Below, in pieces: positions 230 through 20,882 of a stretch of 20,882 nt of DNA. Numbering within the stretch: the stretch's first letter is position 1; every line of letters starts with the position of its first letter. The stretch comes from a virus. The DNA is taken from IMG/VR virus record IMGVR_UViG_3300008625_001118, positions 1 through 20,882 of that record; one strand, 5' to 3'. The notes below the pieces were generated by a model. That model did no database searches, had not been told where the DNA came from, and saw nothing but the letters and a program-made list of their open reading frames with translations. A program made the translations under genes and the position numbers.

Positions 230-2518
230 ATGGTTGTATTTGAACATAAAAAATTATTAATTAATTTAGACTTCAACGATTCGTGTCAATTAAACCTTAC
301 ATCTTTAACAGATGAAGATTTAGACATTAAGATTTATTATGGTAAAAATGGTGAAGAGTTATTAGAATATTCAATTGAATTATTAGGAAGAGATTCTACT
401 AGTTTTAATGGTTATCAAGTATATTTTATAGATTGGCATGTAGAAGTACATATAAATGATGAATTAGTTTTTTTCCATGACATAAATTTAGAAGATCAAG
501 ATGTACGAATTGTAATGGTATCTAAAAATTTAGGAGATTCAACTACGTGGATACCATATGTGGAACAATTTAGGCAAAAACATAAATGTAATATATATCT
601 TGTAACTGTAAATAAAGAACTTTTTGAAACTGAGTATCCATTTATTACTTTTTTAGATGAATATGATAGTTCTATAGATTATCATGCAACTTATTGGTTA
701 GGTGGCTTTGATATTCTTGATAAAAAGAAAACCCCTGGAAAACATCATCCTACACCCACATATTTAGGAGATATGCAAAAAATTGCTTCGGATATATTAG
801 GTCTTGAATATAAAGAAGAAAGAGCTAAACTTACAGTATATAAAGATTTTAAATTACCTTCTAAAAAACCATATGTTACAATAGCTCCATTTGCAACTGC
901 TAGAGCAAAGATGTGGAACTATAAAGGTAATGATGGTTGGCAAGAATTAGTTGATTATTTAAAAAATAAAGGTTATGATGTTGTAAATTGTTCAAGGGAA
1001 TCGGATGGAGAAAAATATTTTAAAATTCCAAAGGGAGTAATTACAAAACCAAAAGATACTTCGATAGAAGAGAGAGTATTTGATATAAAACATTCAGAAT
1101 TTTTTATAGGGGGGAGTTCAGGATTATATTGGGTAGCTCATTCTCTCGGAGTTTGGTCTATTATGATAACAGGACATACTCATAAATTTTTTGATGGAAA
1201 ATCAAAAACAGTAAGAGTTTCGTTAGAAGAAGATGAAAATGTTTGTACTGGATGTTGGCATAACGAAGAAATAGATTGGAATTTTGATAATTATTTCTGT
1301 CCTTTACAACAAGAAGATGATTTTTCAGGATTCCCAAACTTAGATTCAACTTCAAGAAAATGGGAATGTACTAAAAAAATAACAACGGATATGGTTATTG
1401 ATGCGATAAAAGAAGTTGAATCTAAAAAAAGTAAAATAGAAAAAGTAAAAGAAAATTATATTAGTTTAGGAATTAATATTGGACATGATGCAAGTGCTGC
1501 TTTATGTATTAATGGAGAATTAATTTCTAATATAGCAGAGGAACGATTATCAAGATCTAAACATGATAAATGTGAAAATGGACTACCTTTAGAATCTATG
1601 AAATATGTGTTAGGTTGTAATTCTATTGATTTACCACAAGTAAATTCAGTAGTTTATAATGGACCTGGAGAAGGACATGGAGTAGATTATGTTTTACAAC
1701 ATCAACAAAAATTTCATAAAATGGGAATTACAGATTTAAAATTAACATATGGATTACACCATTTAATGCATGCATATTCAACATATTATTCATTTCCTGG
1801 TAAGAAAGGAACTGCTGTAATAGTAGATAATGGTGGTGATATAGCATATCATTGGCATGTTAGTAGATTAGGACAAAAATATAATGTAGATAATACTAAC
1901 GCAGAAAATGCTTCAATATATAAAATAGAAAAAAATACATTTGAAACAGTTTATAAACACTACCATAATTATTTTCCAACAAACCCTGGTACTGATTATC
2001 TTGGATTCTCTTTAGGGGCTTTTTATGAAATGGCTTGTGGAGTAGTTGGTTTGGGAAAAGATGGATTTTCAGCAGGTAAATTAATGGGGCTGGCTTCATA
2101 TGGTAAAAAAGAAAATTTATTTGATAAGATGGGAAAGCCAATCCATAGGGATTTTATTCGAATAGATGAAAGTTTATATGGAGATTTCTATATTCCAAGA
2201 GATAAGGAGAATCAAAATTTAATGCAGTGGTATAAATATGATTTACGAGAAGAAGATTTCCAAACTCAGGCAGATTTTGCTTTACAAGTACAATTACAAT
2301 TTGAAAGAGCAATTTTATTTCTAATTAAAAAAGCAAATCTTTTAGCACCAAATGAAAATCTTTATTTAGCAGGTGGAAGTTTCCTAAATTCCACAGTAAA
2401 TCAAAAAATAGTTGATAGTGGGTTATTTGAGAATGTATATATAATACCAGCAGCAGATGATACTGGTATTTCAATAGGATGTGCATATTATGGGTATTGG
2501 AGAAATTTCCGTGAGTAA
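230..2518 (+). CDS. TibC-like heptosyltransferase fused to Kae1-like carbamoyltransferase domain
   Basis: This 762-residue protein has two enzymes in one chain. Residues ~1-400 resemble the TibC/BAHTCr O-heptosyltransferases that place heptose from ADP-heptose on Ser/Thr of autotransporters. Visible marks are LGDSTTWIPYVEQF (101-114, likely base D103), APFATARAKMWNY (219-231, K227 for nucleotide-sugar phosphate), GGSSGLYWVAHSLG (294-307) and four Cys (C339, C342, C357, C380) matching the family's metal finger. Residues ~408-762 are the N-terminal Kae1-like half of a NodU/TobZ O-carbamoyltransferase: GINIGHDASAAL (414-425), metal ligands H510 and H514 with D533, KLMGLASYG (617-625), LAGGSFLN (713-720) and DDTGISIG (743-750). 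The usual C-terminal YrdC-like half is absent; it is supplied two genes downstream. The start ATG 230 has only a weak TAGGT upstream. The next gene begins inside its last codons, suggesting translational coupling. The domain calls are firm; the acceptor is unknown. Confidence 0.87.
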   Translation: MVVFEHKKLLINLDFNDSCQLNLTSLTDEDLDIKIYYGKNGEELLEYSIELLGRDSTSFNGYQVYFIDWHVEVHINDELVFFHDINLEDQDVRIVMVSKNLGDSTTWIPYVEQFRQKHKCNIYLVTVNKELFETEYPFITFLDEYDSSIDYHATYWLGGFDILDKKKTPGKHHPTPTYLGDMQKIASDILGLEYKEERAKLTVYKDFKLPSKKPYVTIAPFATARAKMWNYKGNDGWQELVDYLKNKGYDVVNCSRESDGEKYFKIPKGVITKPKDTSIEERVFDIKHSEFFIGGSSGLYWVAHSLGVWSIMITGHTHKFFDGKSKTVRVSLEEDENVCTGCWHNEEIDWNFDNYFCPLQQEDDFSGFPNLDSTSRKWECTKKITTDMVIDAIKEVESKKSKIEKVKENYISLGINIGHDASAALCINGELISNIAEERLSRSKHDKCENGLPLESMKYVLGCNSIDLPQVNSVVYNGPGEGHGVDYVLQHQQKFHKMGITDLKLTYGLHHLMHAYSTYYSFPGKKGTAVIVDNGGDIAYHWHVSRLGQKYNVDNTNAENASIYKIEKNTFETVYKHYHNYFPTNPGTDYLGFSLGAFYEMACGVVGLGKDGFSAGKLMGLASYGKKENLFDKMGKPIHRDFIRIDESLYGDFYIPRDKENQNLMQWYKYDLREEDFQTQADFALQVQLQFERAILFLIKKANLLAPNENLYLAGGSFLNSTVNQKIVDSGLFENVYIIPAADDTGISIGCAYYGYWRNFRE
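2499..2503 (+). promoter_or_regulatory. Ribosome binding site GGAGA deciding a GTG start
   Basis: GGAGA lies seven bases before GTG 2511 and within the last codons of the preceding gene. It favours GTG 2511 over GTG 2481 and ATG 2490, which have no comparable site. It also removes an extra N-terminus that would not align with the family, whose first strand starts at SLGIHIGHD. Confidence 0.7.
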
Positions 2519-3512
2519 AACTTCATTAGGAATACATATTGGACATGATAGTGGGGTATCTTTAGTAAAAGATGGTGTATTAGTTAATAGTATATGTCAA
2601 GAAAGATTAAGTAGATTAAAGCATGATGGATTTGATCTTAAATTTCCAAAAAAAGCTTTAGATTATATACTTTCAACAACAAATACACAATTAGATAATA
2701 TAGATAATATAACATATTCAATATGTACCCAACATGAGTATGAAGAAGATTATAATGAGTTAAAAGAGAGCGTAAATTCAGTAGTACCAATTAAAAATTC
2801 AATTAAACATCATACTGCACATGTTATATCAACATATGACTTTTTTGGTTTAAAAGAAGAGGCTGTAGGTTTAGTAGTAGATATGGGCGGTAGTATTTTT
2901 TATAAAGATGGAGAAAAAAATAGGGTTGAAGCACATACTATATTTGATATAAATCAAACAGAACTAAAAACATTATATCAATATAAAACTCCGAAAATAT
3001 CAAATCCAATTTCAGATAATTTAAATACATTCTGTTCATTAGGAGCTTTTTATGAAAACGCTGGACTAAAATTAAACTTAGGTACTTTTAATACTTGTTC
3101 AGGAAAATTAATGGGATTAGCTGGATATGGAAATGAAAAAACAGTACAAAAACGTTGGCCAGAACCATTTATTAATATTCCAGAAGATTTAAATGGAGAA
3201 TTAACTTTAAAATTTAAAACTTGGGATTGGAATGATTTTGATTTTTCTAATATAAAAACACACAATGATATGGCAGATTTTAGTCTTAAAGTTCAAATGG
3301 AATTTGAAAATGCTATAATGTTTTTAGTTAAAAAAGCAAAATTTTTAAAAAATTGCGATACTTTAGTGTTGGCAGGTGGGTGTTTTTTAAATTCTATTGT
3401 AAATCAAAAAATAATTGATTCTGAAATTTTTAATAATATTTATATAATACCAGCAACAGACGATAGTGGTGTATCTATAGGTTGCGCGTTTTATGGTTAT
3501 AGGGAATTATAA
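2511..3512 (+). CDS. Stand-alone Kae1-like carbamoyltransferase domain (second copy)
   Basis: A 333-residue protein from GTG 2511, overlapping the previous gene by eight bases. It is only the Kae1-like transferase half of a NodU/TobZ-type O-carbamoyltransferase. Visible marks are SLGIHIGHDSGVSL (5-18), a metal site H100-x3-H104 with D124 in LVVDMGG, KLMGLAGYG near residue 200, LAGGCFLNS and a C-terminal DDSGVSIGCAFYGY. It clearly resembles the second half of the upstream protein along its full length, and the two look like tandem duplicates that have diverged, with differences concentrated in the middle where the acceptor should bind. In the family this domain moves the carbamoyl group from carbamoyl-adenylate to a sugar hydroxyl. 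It lacks the YrdC-like activating half, so it should need the protein encoded next (TAATG overlap). Acceptor specificity is not readable from sequence. Confidence 0.85.
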   Translation: MSKTSLGIHIGHDSGVSLVKDGVLVNSICQERLSRLKHDGFDLKFPKKALDYILSTTNTQLDNIDNITYSICTQHEYEEDYNELKESVNSVVPIKNSIKHHTAHVISTYDFFGLKEEAVGLVVDMGGSIFYKDGEKNRVEAHTIFDINQTELKTLYQYKTPKISNPISDNLNTFCSLGAFYENAGLKLNLGTFNTCSGKLMGLAGYGNEKTVQKRWPEPFINIPEDLNGELTLKFKTWDWNDFDFSNIKTHNDMADFSLKVQMEFENAIMFLVKKAKFLKNCDTLVLAGGCFLNSIVNQKIIDSEIFNNIYIIPATDDSGVSIGCAFYGYREL

Positions 3513-4990
3513 TGAAAAAAGATGTTTATTTAGGAAAAGAGTATAGTGATAAAGAAATTTTAGGTAAGATTACAGCTAATATTTCGAATATTGATTATAA
3601 AAAACTTCCTATGAATAAAATTATTGAAGAGACTGCTCGATTAATATATGAGCAAAATATAGTAGGTTGGTTCCAAGGAGCATCAGAAACAGGACCAAGG
3701 GCTCTTGGAAATCGTAGTATTTTAGCAGATGCTAGAAATCCTGATATGAAAGATAGGATAAATAGTTCTGTAAAACACAGAGAATGGTTTAGACCATTCG
3801 CTCCAAGTTGTTTGGAAGAAGAAGCACATAAATATTTTAGTCATACAACAAAAAGTCCTCATATGTTATTAATTTCAGATGTTAAAGAAGAATGGAAAAC
3901 GAGATTACCAGCTATTACTCATATTGATGGTACTGCAAGACTTCAAACTGTATCTAAAGATACAAATAAAAAATATTGGCAAGTTATAAAAGAATTTGAA
4001 AAACTTTCTGGTATTCCAGTGATTTTGAACACTTCTTTTAATGATAATGGAGAACCAATTGTAGAAGATCCAGGAAATGCTATAAATTGTTTTATAAGAA
4101 ATAATATGGATTATCTTGTAATAGGAAATTACCTTGTTAGTAAGAAAAAGAGAAATATTAATTATTTAAAACCTATAAATAAAAAACATCGTGTTGGAAT
4201 AGTATGTTTTAGTTATAATCGAGCAGATTATCTTGAAAAAACTATTGATAGTTTGATTAAAACTATGGATAAGAGAGATAAACTATTTTTATTAGAACAA
4301 TCTTCTGATCCAGAGGAAAAAAAGAAATCTTTAGAAATTATAAAAAAGGCAGGAGAAAAAATAGATGTTGTAATATATGATATGCCGTATAATCTTGGAT
4401 GTAGATTGGGAACTAATAGAGTTTGGGAAACTGGGTTTTTTGATGATTGTGAATATTATATGAATATAGATCATGATATGATAATTAAAGAACCACTAAC
4501 TACAGGTATAGAAAAATTAGATTCTTCACCATATATTTGGATGGTAACATATCATAATAGTCCAGAACATGATGTTATGAATGTAGATGGAGATTGGATA
4601 TTAAAAAGTCATACTCGTGGGTGTCATATGATGTTAAGGATAGAAGATTTTCTAAAAATGATGCCAATATGGATGCATCATAATGGTGGACACGATAATT
4701 TAAATTGGCATGGTGGGTTGGATTGGTATTTAATGGATTATGCAGAAGCAGCTCCTGGACCACACACTAAAGAAATAATAGCTGTATTACCAGGGGCATC
4801 AGAACATATTGGTAGAGAATCTGCATGGCAAGGTGAGTATGATGATGAATATAAAGAAGAAGATGAAAAAATGTTTTTAAAAGTAAGAAGTATGAAAGAA
4901 TTGTTAGAATATTATCGTCCCGATCATAGATATGATGGAGATGATGTTTTTTGGTATGAGAAAGAATATGCGGATATTATTAACGGGTAG
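3512..4990 (+). CDS. YrdC-like carbamoyltransferase C-domain fused to GT2 glycosyltransferase
   Basis: A 492-residue fusion starting in a TAATG overlap with the gene before, with AGGGA six bases upstream of the ATG. Residues ~33-212 are the C-terminal YrdC-like domain of NodU/TobZ carbamoyltransferases: GWFQGASETGPRALGNRSIL (52-71), KHREWFRPFAPS (88-99), HIDGTARLQTV (137-147), NTSFNDNGEPIV (173-184) and DYLVIGNYLVSKK at the end. In the family this part makes carbamoyl-adenylate from carbamoyl phosphate and ATP. Residues ~227-480 are a GT-A family 2 type glycosyltransferase starting RVGIVCFSYNRADYLEKTI, with the metal-binding DHD at 320-322 and a later HGGLDWYLMDY that may hold the catalytic base. 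The domain would complete the two Kae1-like proteins upstream. The GT2 sugar donor and acceptor are unknown. Confidence 0.85.
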   Translation: MKKDVYLGKEYSDKEILGKITANISNIDYKKLPMNKIIEETARLIYEQNIVGWFQGASETGPRALGNRSILADARNPDMKDRINSSVKHREWFRPFAPSCLEEEAHKYFSHTTKSPHMLLISDVKEEWKTRLPAITHIDGTARLQTVSKDTNKKYWQVIKEFEKLSGIPVILNTSFNDNGEPIVEDPGNAINCFIRNNMDYLVIGNYLVSKKKRNINYLKPINKKHRVGIVCFSYNRADYLEKTIDSLIKTMDKRDKLFLLEQSSDPEEKKKSLEIIKKAGEKIDVVIYDMPYNLGCRLGTNRVWETGFFDDCEYYMNIDHDMIIKEPLTTGIEKLDSSPYIWMVTYHNSPEHDVMNVDGDWILKSHTRGCHMMLRIEDFLKMMPIWMHHNGGHDNLNWHGGLDWYLMDYAEAAPGPHTKEIIAVLPGASEHIGRESAWQGEYDDEYKEEDEKMFLKVRSMKELLEYYRPDHRYDGDDVFWYEKEYADIING

Positions 4991-12314: not shown

Positions 12315-14738
12315 ATGAGCATATTAGATATAAAAACAAATTTATCAGAAGCGTTCGGAAAAACTGGCTATAGTAAATCTAAACCATTTGAATCAATAAA
12401 CCCTCCAAAGCAAGGTGAATTCCCACAATTATTACCAAAAGAAGTAAAAGAAACATTTTCTAATCAAACATCTGATACTCTTTCTATTGATAGAAATCAA
12501 ACAAAATTTAAAATATCAGATTTTAGTGTAGGAGATATTATACATACACAACCTTATATATCCCAAGAAATAAGAAGAGAAGTAACTTTTCCAGTTACAC
12601 AAATAAGTGATCACATACTTAGAATTGGTGCATTTTTAGATTCACAAGAAGGAGCTTTATTTATAGCAAATCAAGCTATGCTGCAATCTTATAATACTAT
12701 GCCAAAATCATTCGCAGGACTTACAGCTGCAAATGGAGTATATAAAGTTTATAAAAGTGATAATACAAGATTTTCACCAATAGGAATAAGAGGTTCTTTA
12801 ATACCTGGATTTCATATAGAAAGACATGAGATTACTAGAAGTAAGAAGGAAGAAGCTTATGGTAGATTTGCTATAGATATAGGTGGAACTAGAAGTACTT
12901 ATCTTACAGAAAATTTTCCTAATTTAGCACCTAATAAATTTAGATTGAATAATGAGAATGTAGAAGCACAAACTAAGTCTGCATTTGGTATTATTGGATC
13001 TGGATTTGCAAAAAGGATACAGCCAGCATTTGAAAATCAAATGATGTCTATTGTAGAACAAGCATTTACTGATCCAAGAAATATATCAATTAAAGCGGTT
13101 AAATCAGACTTTAAAAAACTTGCAGCAGAATCACTTGGTGGAGCATTTGGTGATTTATTAGGGGCAGGAGCAAAATCTTTAGTAAATCAGGGTACAGATG
13201 CAATTTCTGATTTCTTTGGTGGATTTAATTCTAATATAAAATTTGGTAAAAGTGACTTTGCGAAAATATCAAGTGCTGTAGTTAATACTGGAGTAAACAT
13301 ACTTGTAGATACTATAAATAATGTTGCACAGCAAAAGTTTTCAGAGGCGGTAAATACACAAACACATAAATTAGGAGTTTATGTTGGTAAAAGATTAGGT
13401 ATAGATTCTAAATTTGTAACTAATTCTATACAAGCTGCATTTCAAAAAAATGCTGTAGTTGTATCACAAGTAAGTCCTCCAAATAATTTAAATAAGTATA
13501 ATATATTAGCGCCATATTATGGGCCATCAACACAACATGGATATAGTTTGGGAGATGTTAATCAATTTGTCCGTAGTGAGGTTGAAACTCTAGGTGGTGG
13601 TAAACGAGCAGGATATGGTACGCATTTACACGCGGAAAGTAAGATATTTTCTTTTGTACATATTAGTCGTGTATCTTTAATTGATGAATCACAAGCAAAT
13701 ATATTAATGAAAAACCCTGATACATTATATCGAGATCAGGATATATTGGGGAATGGTTTAAATACTGATGGTGCACATAGACAAATATCATACAGAGTTT
13801 TACCATATTCTCAACTACAAACAGATAGTAAAGGATTAGGTGGATGGCATCCAGCTAAATTGGCAGGAGAAGAGTCAGTAGGTGCATTTTTACAAAAAGA
13901 AAAAGCAGAAACATTAGGAAAATATTCTGAAGGACGTGGGCAAGATGGATTAACAGGTTATAGAGAAGATCCCGATTTTGGAGTAATGAAGCCATCTATT
14001 AAATCTGATCAAGTTACTTTACATAGACCTAACCACGAGGATGATAAATTAAGAGATGATTTTGTTAGTTTTGCATTTCATGATACGGTTAATAAGAAGC
14101 ATATTCAGTTTAGAGCAGTGTTAGGAGCAATAACTGATACAATTCGTCCTGAATGGGATTCAATAAGATATCTTGGACGTCCTGATCAAGTTTATATGTA
14201 TAAAGGAGCTATACGAAATATTAACTTCACATTTAAAGTTGCTGCTTTTACAAAACAAGAATTAATATTTGGTTGGGAAAAATTAAATTACCTTGTTGGG
14301 TTGGCATATCCTGCAAAATATCAAGAAGGTGGTATCGGTGGTGGACAAATGGTAGCACCATTAGTTAAATTAACAATTGGTGGAATGTTTAAACAGACTC
14401 CTGGGTTGGTAAATAATATTTCATTAACAGTACCCGATCAATCACCTTGGGATATTAATCCTAACTTAGAATTACCTAAATATATAGAAGCATCAGTAGA
14501 TTTTCAGTATATTGGAGATAATAAATTACAAGCACTAAGTAAACATTATAGTTTACCTTATATGGATCAAGATGGTCCATTAAATGAAAAAGTAAATACA
14601 ACAATTGCAGATGTAGAAAAAAGTAATAACGCACCATCTCATGCTATGGGTGGAAGAGGTGATTATTCAGGTAGAATAAGTGCACCAGTGAAGAATACCG
14701 ATAAATTTAATTCAATTAGAGATAGATTGTTAGGATAA
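12315..14738 (+). CDS. Large baseplate protein, tail tube initiator/cap-like C-terminus (gp48/gp54-like)
   Basis: An 807-residue protein starting two bases after the previous stop. Residues ~578-755 (DDFVSFAFHDTVNKKHIQFR, RYLGRPDQVYMYKGAIRNIN, ELIFGWEKLNYLVGLAYP, PKYIEASVDFQYIG) look like the beta-structured tube-fold region of proteins that nucleate the tail tube on the baseplate, such as T4 gp54 and gp48. Residues ~70-110 (PYISQEIRREVTFPVTQISD) and the Gly/Ala-rich middle are not recognised. T4 gp54 and gp48 have 320 and 364 residues; this protein is more than twice as long, so it may combine roles or carry extra domains. Its place beside LysM and hub genes supports a baseplate role. The exact T4 counterpart is an inference. 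Confidence 0.6.
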   Translation: MSILDIKTNLSEAFGKTGYSKSKPFESINPPKQGEFPQLLPKEVKETFSNQTSDTLSIDRNQTKFKISDFSVGDIIHTQPYISQEIRREVTFPVTQISDHILRIGAFLDSQEGALFIANQAMLQSYNTMPKSFAGLTAANGVYKVYKSDNTRFSPIGIRGSLIPGFHIERHEITRSKKEEAYGRFAIDIGGTRSTYLTENFPNLAPNKFRLNNENVEAQTKSAFGIIGSGFAKRIQPAFENQMMSIVEQAFTDPRNISIKAVKSDFKKLAAESLGGAFGDLLGAGAKSLVNQGTDAISDFFGGFNSNIKFGKSDFAKISSAVVNTGVNILVDTINNVAQQKFSEAVNTQTHKLGVYVGKRLGIDSKFVTNSIQAAFQKNAVVVSQVSPPNNLNKYNILAPYYGPSTQHGYSLGDVNQFVRSEVETLGGGKRAGYGTHLHAESKIFSFVHISRVSLIDESQANILMKNPDTLYRDQDILGNGLNTDGAHRQISYRVLPYSQLQTDSKGLGGWHPAKLAGEESVGAFLQKEKAETLGKYSEGRGQDGLTGYREDPDFGVMKPSIKSDQVTLHRPNHEDDKLRDDFVSFAFHDTVNKKHIQFRAVLGAITDTIRPEWDSIRYLGRPDQVYMYKGAIRNINFTFKVAAFTKQELIFGWEKLNYLVGLAYPAKYQEGGIGGGQMVAPLVKLTIGGMFKQTPGLVNNISLTVPDQSPWDINPNLELPKYIEASVDFQYIGDNKLQALSKHYSLPYMDQDGPLNEKVNTTIADVEKSNNAPSHAMGGRGDYSGRISAPVKNTDKFNSIRDRLLG

Positions 14739-15037
14739 TGAGTAGATATAAAACAGAAAATACAATAAAAATAGATAAAGAAGGAAAAAAATCTTTTGTA
14801 TCTAAAATATTACCACGCATAGAAGTAGATGATACAGATATTTTTGTATATCGAGTTGATGGAGTTGGATTAAGTGCACTTGCTAAAGAATATTATGATG
14901 ATGAATCTTTGTGGTGGGTTATAGCTAAAGCAAATAATACAGGTATACGAGGATTTGGTATAGATAAAAGTTTAGATGTAGTAAGAATACCTAATCCAAC
15001 TCGATTAAATGAAATTATACAAGATAATGGTTACTAA
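14738..15037 (+). CDS. 53: LysM-containing baseplate wedge protein (gp53-like)
   Basis: A 99-residue protein that starts in a TAATG overlap with the gene before and ends in an overlap with the next start. Residues ~37-85 form a LysM-like unit: VYRVDGVGLSALAKEYYDDE, then SLWWVIAKANN and a loop ending in DVVRIPNP. The same fold occurs in T4 gp53 and in the small P2 gpX-type proteins that bind the tail hub of contractile tails. T4 gp53 is 196 residues, so this is a short form. It would join wedge or hub parts of the baseplate, not bind peptidoglycan. Confidence 0.75.
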   Translation: MSRYKTENTIKIDKEGKKSFVSKILPRIEVDDTDIFVYRVDGVGLSALAKEYYDDESLWWVIAKANNTGIRGFGIDKSLDVVRIPNPTRLNEIIQDNGY

Positions 15038-18606: not shown

Positions 18607-19239
18607 TTGAGTCAAGAAGCTTGGAACATATTTTCTAAAATTATAGATACCTATTCTTATGATGACCATCGTAGGTTAGCTATAGAAGAGTGTTATTATT
18701 CAAATAATACAACGTTTGAAACAGAAGTTTTATTATCAGATGAATCTTGTAAATCATTAATAGATTATACAAATAGATATGTAAATGATAAGATACTTGA
18801 TAGTGTAGATGGTTTACCTGATTGGCAGATAACCTACTTACAAAAAGATATAGAAAACTTATGTACTGTTTCAGAGATTAGAAATATAATAAAAATTGCG
18901 TATGATAAGTATCCAAATATTAGTAATGTAGAGTTTTTTGTTAGAAAGTATGGAGTAGGTGCGAGAGAAAAATTACCTTGGCATATTGATGATGCAGTTG
19001 TATCTTCTACAATACACTTGTCAAATTATTTTGAATATGATGGCGGCGACATTTTATTTATAGAAGATGAAGAGATAAAAAGAAAAAGTGAATTAAAAAA
19101 AGGATGTGGATTTTTTTTTGATGGAAATGTTATACATAGTGTAGAACCCATTACTACAGGTAATAGGTGGACTTTAATAGTATTTTTCTTTGCCAAACAT
19201 AGTGAATGGTCTAAAGAAGAAAATAAGGTTATATTTTGA
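18607..19239 (+). CDS. 2OG-Fe(II) oxygenase (prolyl-hydroxylase type)
   Basis: A 210-residue protein starting at TTG 18607 (no in-frame ATG or GTG is available nearby, and AAAGG lies ten bases before). Residues ~108-195 are a double-stranded beta-helix dioxygenase core: WHIDDA gives the iron ligands H126 and D128, YDGGDILFIED is the usual strand with the GG turn, GCGFFFDGNVIHSVEPI supplies the distal iron ligand H177, and TGNRWTLIVFF supplies R187, which binds the 2-oxoglutarate carboxylate. These enzymes hydroxylate a protein side chain or small molecule using oxygen and 2-oxoglutarate. T4-like marine phages often carry several, usually among virion genes; the substrate is unknown. It overlaps the next start by four bases (TTGA). 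Confidence 0.88.
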   Translation: MSQEAWNIFSKIIDTYSYDDHRRLAIEECYYSNNTTFETEVLLSDESCKSLIDYTNRYVNDKILDSVDGLPDWQITYLQKDIENLCTVSEIRNIIKIAYDKYPNISNVEFFVRKYGVGAREKLPWHIDDAVVSSTIHLSNYFEYDGGDILFIEDEEIKRKSELKKGCGFFFDGNVIHSVEPITTGNRWTLIVFFFAKHSEWSKEENKVIF

Positions 19240-20507
19240 ATAAAATACAAATAATAGAAACTAATAATATAGCAAATGAGTTATATTCTAAATTAGAAAA
19301 CAAAGAAGTTTTCGTACAGTTTATATATGATGATATTAATAGGCATAGTTTATTCAATCCAATTTCTACAGTATATTTAAATGATTTTGAAAATGAATAT
19401 TTGATTAATATTTCAAATAGTGATGCTAAAAAAGTAGATATTACAGATATAAATTTAAACTTTAAAAAAACGTATATATTTGGAGCAAAAGAAGCTCTTC
19501 ATCAAATTAAGTTACAAAATTATGTTGATCTACATTATTATTTACATTCGGTAAGTAATAGACATTATATAGTTGATGAATTATTTAATTTTGAAACACA
19601 TAAGTGGTATCAGATGAATTACTTTAATATTGAAGATTTAAATAAATATATTCCAATATTGAAACATCTTGAATATTGTAGGTTTGCATTTCAATATGCA
19701 GAATATATTCTAGATAATTTTAATTTTGATGAATATAATAATGAGATGATTGATAATTTAAATTTCATTGAATCAGGTGGATTATATACAGAAAATGGAT
19801 ATGAATATACTCAATATAATTTATTAACTTCTACAGGACGTCCTTCAAATAGTTTTGGGGGAATAAATTATGCGGCATTAAATAAAAAGGATGGAAGTAG
19901 GGAACGATTTGTTAGTAGATTTAAAGATGAAGGTATGCTAGTAGAATATGATTTTGATTCATACCATTTAAGATTAGTTGGAAATAAAATAGGATATGAT
20001 TTACCAAAAGAATCTGTACATAAATATTTTGCGCAACAGTATAATACAAATTATGAAGATTCTAAAAAGTTAAGTTTTAAATATCTATATGGTGGTATTA
20101 CAGATGAAATAGCAAAACAAATACCATATTTTGATGGAGTTAATCAGTATATTAATACACTTTGGAACACATATAATAAGGAAAAACAAGTGGTTTCCGA
20201 TATTTATAACAGAAGGTTTATTAAAAGCAATTTATTTGATATGAATCCAAATAAATTATTTAATTATATGATTCAGTTAATGGAAACTGAAAGAAATATG
20301 AGCTTGATAACAGCCTTAAAAGAAAGTTTACAGAATAAGAAAAGTAAATTGATATTGTATAATTATGATGCTTTTCTTTTTGATTATTGTAAAAAAGATG
20401 GTGAAAATATATTGAATGATATTAAAAAAATACTTGAGGTAGATGGTTATCCGACCAAAATTACAGCAGGAAAAAATTATCACACTATGGAACGTTATGA
20501 GATTTGA
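19236..20507 (+). CDS. Divergent family A DNA polymerase-like protein
   Basis: A 423-residue protein starting at TTG 19236 with AAGG at 19225-19228. Residues ~196-423 follow the order of family A (Pol I type) polymerase motifs. LLTSTGRPSN (196-205) matches the 'T.TGRLS' entry motif and is followed by NYAALN. EYDFDSYHLRL (237-247) matches motif A with catalytic D239 kept but the E of 'SQIELR' replaced by H244. K277, F281 and Y285-G286 match motif B, with the usual Arg replaced by Y273. LYNYDAFLFDY (374-384) matches motif C with D378 kept, but HDE is changed to YDA. Residues ~1-170 could be a degenerate exonuclease-like domain without its acidic residues. No 5'-nuclease is present. It lies among late tail genes, far from a replication module, so it may be an active repair-type enzyme or a repurposed fold. 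Confidence 0.72.
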   Translation: MNKIQIIETNNIANELYSKLENKEVFVQFIYDDINRHSLFNPISTVYLNDFENEYLINISNSDAKKVDITDINLNFKKTYIFGAKEALHQIKLQNYVDLHYYLHSVSNRHYIVDELFNFETHKWYQMNYFNIEDLNKYIPILKHLEYCRFAFQYAEYILDNFNFDEYNNEMIDNLNFIESGGLYTENGYEYTQYNLLTSTGRPSNSFGGINYAALNKKDGSRERFVSRFKDEGMLVEYDFDSYHLRLVGNKIGYDLPKESVHKYFAQQYNTNYEDSKKLSFKYLYGGITDEIAKQIPYFDGVNQYINTLWNTYNKEKQVVSDIYNRRFIKSNLFDMNPNKLFNYMIQLMETERNMSLITALKESLQNKKSKLILYNYDAFLFDYCKKDGENILNDIKKILEVDGYPTKITAGKNYHTMERYEI

Positions 20508-20882
20508 TGATATAATAAATGAGATAGCTTGGAGATGTAAGGATGGTATGCCCAACTTTAAAAGAGCTGATGATGTAATGTTATTAAAGAATCAACTTGT
20601 AAAAGAAGGTTGGAGTTCTGAGGTTATATATGCATTATTAGATAATTTAGGTCTTACTGAAGATGATAAATGGTGGGCAAAGTTATCACCAGAACAACAA
20701 GCACAATATATTAAAGATCATCCTAAATCTCAAAAAGCTCAAGATGCAAAAAGAAAAGAAAAAGAAGTAGAACCTAAAAAACCTGTAGATAAAGAAAAGG
20801 AAGAATTATCTGTAGATTATCATGATGAATTAGAATCTGAACATAAAAATCCAATGGTTGAAAAACAAATTAAAGAAGCAGA
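20497..20882 (+). CDS. Unknown charged phage protein (3' partial)
   Basis: The frame starts at ATG 20497, eleven bases inside the end of the polymerase-like gene, and runs off the window, giving 128 residues. The first ~55 residues (MRFDDIINEIAWRCKDGMPN, then DVMLLKNQLVKEGWSSEVIY) look like a small helical domain. WWAKLSPEQQAQYIKDHPKS at about 65-84 is a pattern I recall from other phage structural proteins. After that comes a long Lys/Glu-rich, probably disordered or coiled region. The full length and role are not visible; a virion or scaffold-type protein would fit the context. Confidence 0.75.
   Translation, partial: MRFDDIINEIAWRCKDGMPNFKRADDVMLLKNQLVKEGWSSEVIYALLDNLGLTEDDKWWAKLSPEQQAQYIKDHPKSQKAQDAKRKEKEVEPKKPVDKEKEELSVDYHDELESEHKNPMVEKQIKEA

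Follow-up and report, generated by a model that had tools for sequence, protein, structure and literature searches.

The window, by which we mean the whole 20.9-kb viral record analysed, ends 375 bases past an open reading frame whose product carries motifs of Pol I-type polymerases, and the locus raises the question of what this protein is and what it does in a phage. The earlier note on this DNA had read the frame as a divergent family A polymerase lying inside the late tail module, and had offered translesion or repair synthesis, ribonucleotide use or a virion function as its role. We addressed the question by computation.

The frame is a real gene under purifying selection (dN/dS about 0.16). 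The dN/dS values of the window gene against its two nearest relatives were 0.163 and 0.158, and the value against the L018 homologue was 0.132, with dS near saturation in that comparison. The TTG start and the length were the same in the full-length relatives closest to the window gene, L001 (92% identity) and L002 (91%). The coordinates of the frame and the residues that had been listed for it (T200-G-R-P-S-N205, D239, H244, Y273, K277, F281, Y285-G286 and Y377-D378-A379) were correct. Table 1 shows the gene, its parts and its neighbors.

Table 1. Positions in the window of the divPolA1 gene, its domains and motifs, and neighboring genes
Feature	Position	Strand	Remarks
Baseplate wedge gene, which we take to be gp25-like (our own naming)	14738..15037	+	PHROG 7145 'baseplate wedge subunit', E 7e-9
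2OG-Fe(II) oxygenase-like gene, upstream	18607..19239	+	PHROG 2297 and weak PHROG 81 matches; Pfam 2OG match of the L018 homologue
divPolA1 gene, 423 aa	19236..20507	+	TTG start; overlaps the stop of the upstream 2OG gene (TTGA)
N-terminal domain, residues 1-139, aligned with the Pol I 3'-5' exonuclease-type domain	19236..19652	+	Border estimated
Shortened thumb, residues 140-199	19653..19832	+	Two helices, 141-161 and 168-181 (secondary structure of the model); border estimated
TGRPSN, residues 200-205	19833..19850	+	R202 aligned with the Arg of Pol I TGR
Motif A, DFDSYHLR, residues 239-246	19950..19973	+	D239 catalytic; H244 at the steric-gate Glu position
Motif B (O-helix), residues 273-286	20052..20093	+	Y273 in place of Arg; K277, F281, Y285-G286
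Motif C, YDAFLFD, residues 377-383	20364..20384	+	D378 catalytic; YDA for HDE (YDS in most relatives)
Next gene, cut by the window end	20497..20880	+	ATG just before the polymerase stop; longer frame from 20443

When the window protein was used alone, a Pfam search gave no match, searches of PHROGs and of PDB sequences gave nothing useful, and a model built from the single sequence failed, with a pLDDT of 36; the fold therefore rests on an alignment of relatives. With 73 aligned sequences as input, AlphaFold2 produced a model with a pLDDT of 90.4 and a pTM of 0.89. The best match of this model among solved structures was the Bacillus (Bst) Pol I large fragment (Z 29.0, rmsd 2.9 A, 388 residues aligned), and the match spanned the whole chain, with residues 1-418 of the model placed against residues 298-875 of Bst. 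Foldseek matched the model to Klenow with an E value of 8e-16, and all 50 matches listed in the structural comparison were Pol I DNA polymerases. The Pfam profile PF00476 (DNA_pol_A) was matched at E 0.01 or better by 23 of the 73 aligned sequences (best E, 1.9e-11), and the homologue in phage immuto scored 43.9 bits in two joined pieces (cut-off, 34.3). The structure prediction and the profile search that the earlier note had proposed as checks thus returned a Pol I palm and fingers fold and matches to DNA_pol_A among the relatives, which, together with the kept catalytic residues, bear out its assignment to a divergent branch of family A.

Judged from the model, the window protein appears as a shrunken Klenow-like enzyme. 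It shares the fold over the whole chain and the motif order with Klenow, the Bst Pol I large fragment and KlenTaq, but it has 423 residues instead of about 580 and is only about 15% identical to them. It further differs from these enzymes in having His for Glu at the gate, Tyr for Arg in motif B and YDA for HDE in motif C, and the 5' nuclease is encoded by a separate gene.

A tblastn search of annotated phages with the window protein matched seven records. Four of these were immuto records, annotated as 'DNA polymerase family A', and the alignment with immuto gene 1 (E 8e-53) covered 92% of the query at 33% identity. The other records were the Microcystis phage Mel-JY01, where the product is a hypothetical protein, the 484-kb uncultured phage LR756508 and, as a weak match (E 7e-3), the polymerase of Pelagibacter phage HTVC033P. 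The window protein is almost certainly a compact polymerase of family A and a member of divPolA1, a name that, among the papers searched, only Yutin et al. (2024) and its preprint use. In its main text, that paper (PMC11348598) describes divPolA1 from the group of Flavobacterium phage vB_FspM_immuto as an extra, exonuclease-dead and short-thumb PolA beside a regular replicase, and reports it from 14 phages with genomes of 155-190 kb, all of which encode a regular polymerase (PolA, PolB or PolC) and have conserved replication genes downstream. The window gene belongs to this described family and is therefore not new as a kind. The immuto protein is homologous to the window protein and of the same length class, the immuto genome carries a second polymerase, and the main text of PMC11348598 describes for this group a kept palm, a dead exonuclease and a short thumb. 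Downstream of the immuto gene, the order SSB-RecA-5'-3' exonuclease-DnaB is that of the window's relatives. The main text also describes divPolA2 of the barbaviruses, likewise an extra exonuclease-less PolA beside PolB, and sets it apart from divPolA1 by a different N-terminal domain and a variable neighborhood.

Compared with the 14 phages in the main text of that report (PMC11348598), we found the family in at least 579 IMG/VR stretches and in one 484-kb phage. A scan of contigs in genome collections gave seven more loci, all in metagenome-assembled genomes; one of these was titled Nitrosopelagicus (archaeal) and one Rickettsiaceae, and both are probably phage contigs that were binned with them. 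A recently named second polymerase is thus widespread in contractile-tailed phages, many of them from environmental metagenomes. To the picture of 2024 our analysis adds this spread, the presence of the His gate across the family, and a precise location for the gene, with baseplate genes on one side and replication genes on the other.

The motif register was then compared with that of Pol I. In the alignment of the 73-sequence profile with KlenTaq, all three motifs were in register, although the match itself was weak (E 0.029): D-Y-S-Q-I-E-L-R lay over D-y-D-a-Y-H-l-R, V-H-D-E lay over s-Y-D-s, and the K, F and YG of motif B were aligned. The alignment to the HTVC033P polymerase gave the same register. 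That polymerase is the nearest ordinary phage PolA by sequence and has H-D-S in motif C and FKPLYGG in motif B; unlike divPolA1, it has 678 residues, keeps the gate Glu and the motif C His, and lies in a primase-helicase-polymerase cluster. With the conservation of residues in two differently patterned scans and the Z 29 fold, the motif match that the earlier note had read from the letters is far beyond chance.

Residue conservation was tallied in overlapping sets of relatives. The patterns of the first scan were motifs A and C themselves, so its residue tallies are biased; it recovered at least 579 relatives among 600 candidate stretches, of which 80 were kept, and the tally comprised 85 family sequences (window included) plus HTVC033P. 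The patterns of the second scan, chosen against circularity, were taken from residues 190-236, outside motifs A to C, and the best 80 of at least 589 relatives gave 76 distinct sequences, 51 of them new. In the alignment behind these patterns the L006 and L004 rows were shifted, that of L006 into motif A, and both chosen patterns lay outside that stretch. His was found at the gate in 84 of 84 covered family sequences of the first tally, where the lone Glu was that of the non-member HTVC033P, and in all 76 sequences of the second, which had been recovered with neither motif A nor motif C patterns. A third tally took in the seven genome-collection loci, whose scan patterns avoid motif A, and three phage records, and gave His in 9 of 9 covered sequences. 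The second tally also gave D239 in 76/76, K277 in 75/75, Y285-G286 in 75/75, F281 in 73/75, and Y377 and D378 in 74/74 sequences, with Ser (53) or Ala (21) at position 379. With HTVC033P set aside, D239, K277, Y285, G286, D378 and the gate His were kept in every covered relative in both scans, and N343 and Q347 were conserved almost without exception across the tallies. Phe and Tyr-Gly of the O-helix are features of accurate family A enzymes.

The residues found changed were the gate Glu (to His), the motif B Arg (lost) and the His-Asp-Glu of motif C (to Tyr-Asp-Ser or Tyr-Asp-Ala), all of which are conserved in family A without strictly defining it. The His in 76/76 and 9/9 sequences and the Ser or Ala at position 379 indicate that, in the sequences recovered, the whole family carries the substitutions at the gate and in motif C. 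The motif B Arg was absent from all 75 covered members of the second tally, which had Tyr (48), Ile (20), Leu (3), Val (2) or Met (2) in its place. D241, seemingly invariant in the first tally, was variable in the second (D, E, S, N or T); since both D241 and Y273 varied there, neither was counted as a family signature. The motif B Arg contacts the dNTP phosphates in Pol I, and its loss could mean weak activity. For motif C a precedent exists in the family A polymerase of Thermus phage Tt72, which has Ser for the Glu after the motif C Asp, as do most divPolA1 proteins. According to passages of the Tt72 report (PMC9324360), the S616A variant retains 76% activity while D384A and D615A fall to 4%; because Tt72 with Ser at that place is active, a missing motif C Glu does not by itself disable a polymerase. 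Tt72 PolA differs from divPolA1 in that the gate Glu (E389) is retained and the exonuclease is active and strong (same passages of PMC9324360).

The main text of PMC11348598, figures and supplements aside, does not contain the words 'steric' or 'histidine', and its passages hold no mention of the His gate or of the loss of the motif B Arg. That a whole family naturally carries His in place of Glu is relevant to the exclusion of ribonucleotides by family A enzymes and to the question why large phages keep two polymerases. It is conceivable that the His gate makes divPolA1 an rNTP-using polymerase, that is, a primer maker, an enzyme of ribo-patches or an RNA polymerase. The occurrence of the swap in every covered member of the overlapping tallies is consistent with this, as are the apicoplast Pol, in which replacement of the gate Glu by Ala lets GTP in (PMC12529929), and the co-option of PolA as RNA polymerase in T7 and related phages (main text of PMC11348598). 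However, His is bulky, unlike Gly or Ala, Phe281 is a DNA polymerase-type residue, and the listed structural matches were without exception Pol I DNA polymerases. We therefore consider rNTP use improbable, and we expect that the His gate still hinders rNTPs, perhaps less tightly than Glu. It is very doubtful, too, that the invariant His gate and the missing motif B Arg mark a distinct, ribonucleotide-tolerating polymerase class that makes or processes mixed RNA/DNA patches with the flap nuclease; if true, such an enzyme could give the phage its own means of lagging-strand completion or repair when dNTPs run short.

The N-terminal domain and the thumb were also examined. The structural alignment of the N-terminal domain begins at Bst residue 298, and inspection of the N-terminal part of the window protein revealed no DxE exo I motif. 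The main text of PMC11348598 reports that, in the divPolA1 family, all three exonuclease Asp residues are replaced and the thumb is truncated while the palm residues are retained. In the same domain we observed a D-x-x-K/R-H pattern (D33 and H37; positions 19332-19346), with D33 in 67 and H37 in 72 of 73 relatives.

We surveyed the gene neighborhood in 86 loci, namely the 80 kept from the first scan (of at least 579) and six others, with near-duplicates such as L053/L054 included, and neighbors were counted only in loci with enough flank to tell. The gp25-like gene was upstream in 36 of the 36 loci that have at least 7 kb of upstream sequence. Downstream, a gp32-like SSB was found in 45/46 loci, RecA/UvsX in 41/42, a 5'-3' exonuclease in 32/35 and a DnaB helicase in 28/32, and no neighbor match in the surveyed loci was on the opposite strand. 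Pfam confirmed the identities of SSB, RecA, exonuclease and DnaB on the L018 copies. In the relatives, divPolA1 thus lies between the baseplate genes and an SSB-UvsX/RecA-exonuclease-DnaB block, in a fixed gene order. The placement inside the late tail module was an effect of where the window ends; in the relatives, the close L001 and L018 among them, a replication and recombination block follows.

Homologues of the gene that follows in the window were found after the polymerase in L001, L002 and L018. A 137-aa protein (L001 6521-6934; L018 9995-10408) was encoded downstream in 57 of the 57 loci with at least 5 kb of downstream sequence; it matched nothing in Pfam or PHROGs and is an obvious candidate replication partner. 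In part of the loci, a protein of 716-738 aa was encoded between the 137-aa gene and SSB (L018 10697-12913; L001 7232-9382), with a weak PHROG match to 'cobalamin biosynthesis protein'. The 2OG oxygenase, which had been taken for an associated neighbor, was present in only 2 of the 43 loci with at least 5 kb of upstream sequence and in five of the 86 overall. On the former count we rejected a functional partnership, and the oxygenase is a local feature.

The earlier note also proposed that a former polymerase may have been turned into a virion protein. Such a catalytically dead virion or scaffold protein would fit the position of the gene directly after the baseplate genes, the short thumb and the altered motifs. 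Both metal-binding Asp residues, the O-helix Lys and Tyr-Gly, and N343/Q347 are nevertheless kept almost without exception, and the conserved downstream partners (SSB, UvsX, 5'-3' exonuclease and DnaB) are replicative. Since the catalytic residues are invariant and these partners replicative, the virion reading is unsupported; a virion role is unlikely, and dead-polymerase reuse of this kind extremely improbable. The virion-protein and RNA-polymerase readings both rank low.

The linkage to UvsX would fit another role in the earlier note, that of a translesion or damage-tolerance polymerase whose exonuclease-free site, changed gate and motif B would be tuned to lesion bypass. Such a role would agree with the fact that the whole family has lost the gate Glu and the motif B Arg, and with the absence of exonuclease catalytic residues described in the main text of PMC11348598. 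We found no sequence feature specific to lesion bypass, and Phe281 and the O-helix Tyr-Gly are kept in nearly all members, which argues against the translesion role and makes it quite unlikely.

To determine which other polymerases accompany divPolA1, we searched the phage records and the longer contigs. Immuto has another PolA besides divPolA1 (a frame of 778 aa), Mel-JY01 has PolB, and LR756508 has pieces of PolB, so that 3 of 3 phage records had a second polymerase. PolB was found in 23 of 32 longer IMG/VR contigs carrying the gene (14/22 and 9/10), and the alpha subunit of PolC in none of the 32. PolB was not seen in 9 of the 32 contigs, all contigs being linear and possibly fragments. In PF00476 searches of the same contigs, every matching frame was of the size of the compact gene (351-467 aa). 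The earlier claim of a second polymerase beside the phage replicase thus held for the relatives; it is a statement about them and not about the window itself, which spans 20.9 kb. Literature searches found no paper on marine T4-like phages with a second polymerase and none on Mel-JY01. The PolB matches of LR756508 (260623-266900 of the record) fell into one open frame of 1022 aa and another of 625 aa, separated by about 4 kb, and this PolB may be split or interrupted. In the L167 record (G027), the PolB match at 69652-71978 also fell in two frames, one of which contained one TGA and one TAG, and the break would be a frameshift, stop-codon recoding or an assembly error.

On the other hand, divPolA1 itself may be the main replicase, with the 'regular' polymerase serving another task. 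It sits in a conserved replication block while the regular polymerases vary among families A, B and C, and the main text of Yutin et al. (PMC11348598) infers a replication role for divPolA1 and finds that of the regular DNA polymerases less obvious. Because 9 of the 32 contigs had no PolB and none had PolC, some phages might use divPolA1 as replicase, if these contigs are not fragments. However, divPolA1 appears to have no working proofreading domain despite genomes of 155-484 kb, the truncated thumb suggests low processivity, and most contigs tested have a full-length family B polymerase frame. We therefore regard the main replicase role as unlikely.

We favor, and hold to be probable, a role in filling gaps or in synthesis linked to recombination, in either case without proofreading and next to the flap nuclease. 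divPolA1 is predicted to be catalytically active, as a DNA-templated DNA polymerase that provides the synthetic half of a 'split Pol I': a miniature Klenow-like enzyme with the catalytic Asp residues intact, a short thumb and an exonuclease-type domain without catalysis. The gene opens the recombination and replication block, and the enzyme would be used alongside a separate replicative polymerase, which is of family B in most relatives tested. The separate 5'-3' exonuclease of the same block would remove RNA primers or flaps, and divPolA1 would fill the resulting gaps, or extend recombination intermediates made by UvsX, on gp32-coated DNA, without proofreading and with modest processivity. 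The two genes would thus jointly do the job of one bacterial Pol I chain. The partnership with the flap nuclease is suggested by gene order, and repair-type synthesis is plausible.

A further observation concerns the other end of the window. Two carbamoyltransferase N-terminal domains and one C-terminal domain are distributed over three consecutive genes (positions 230-4990). One of the N-terminal domains is fused to a GT9-like domain, and the C-terminal domain begins a longer protein. An epimerase gene follows, which makes this an unusual split sugar-carbamoylation cluster adjoining the tail genes.
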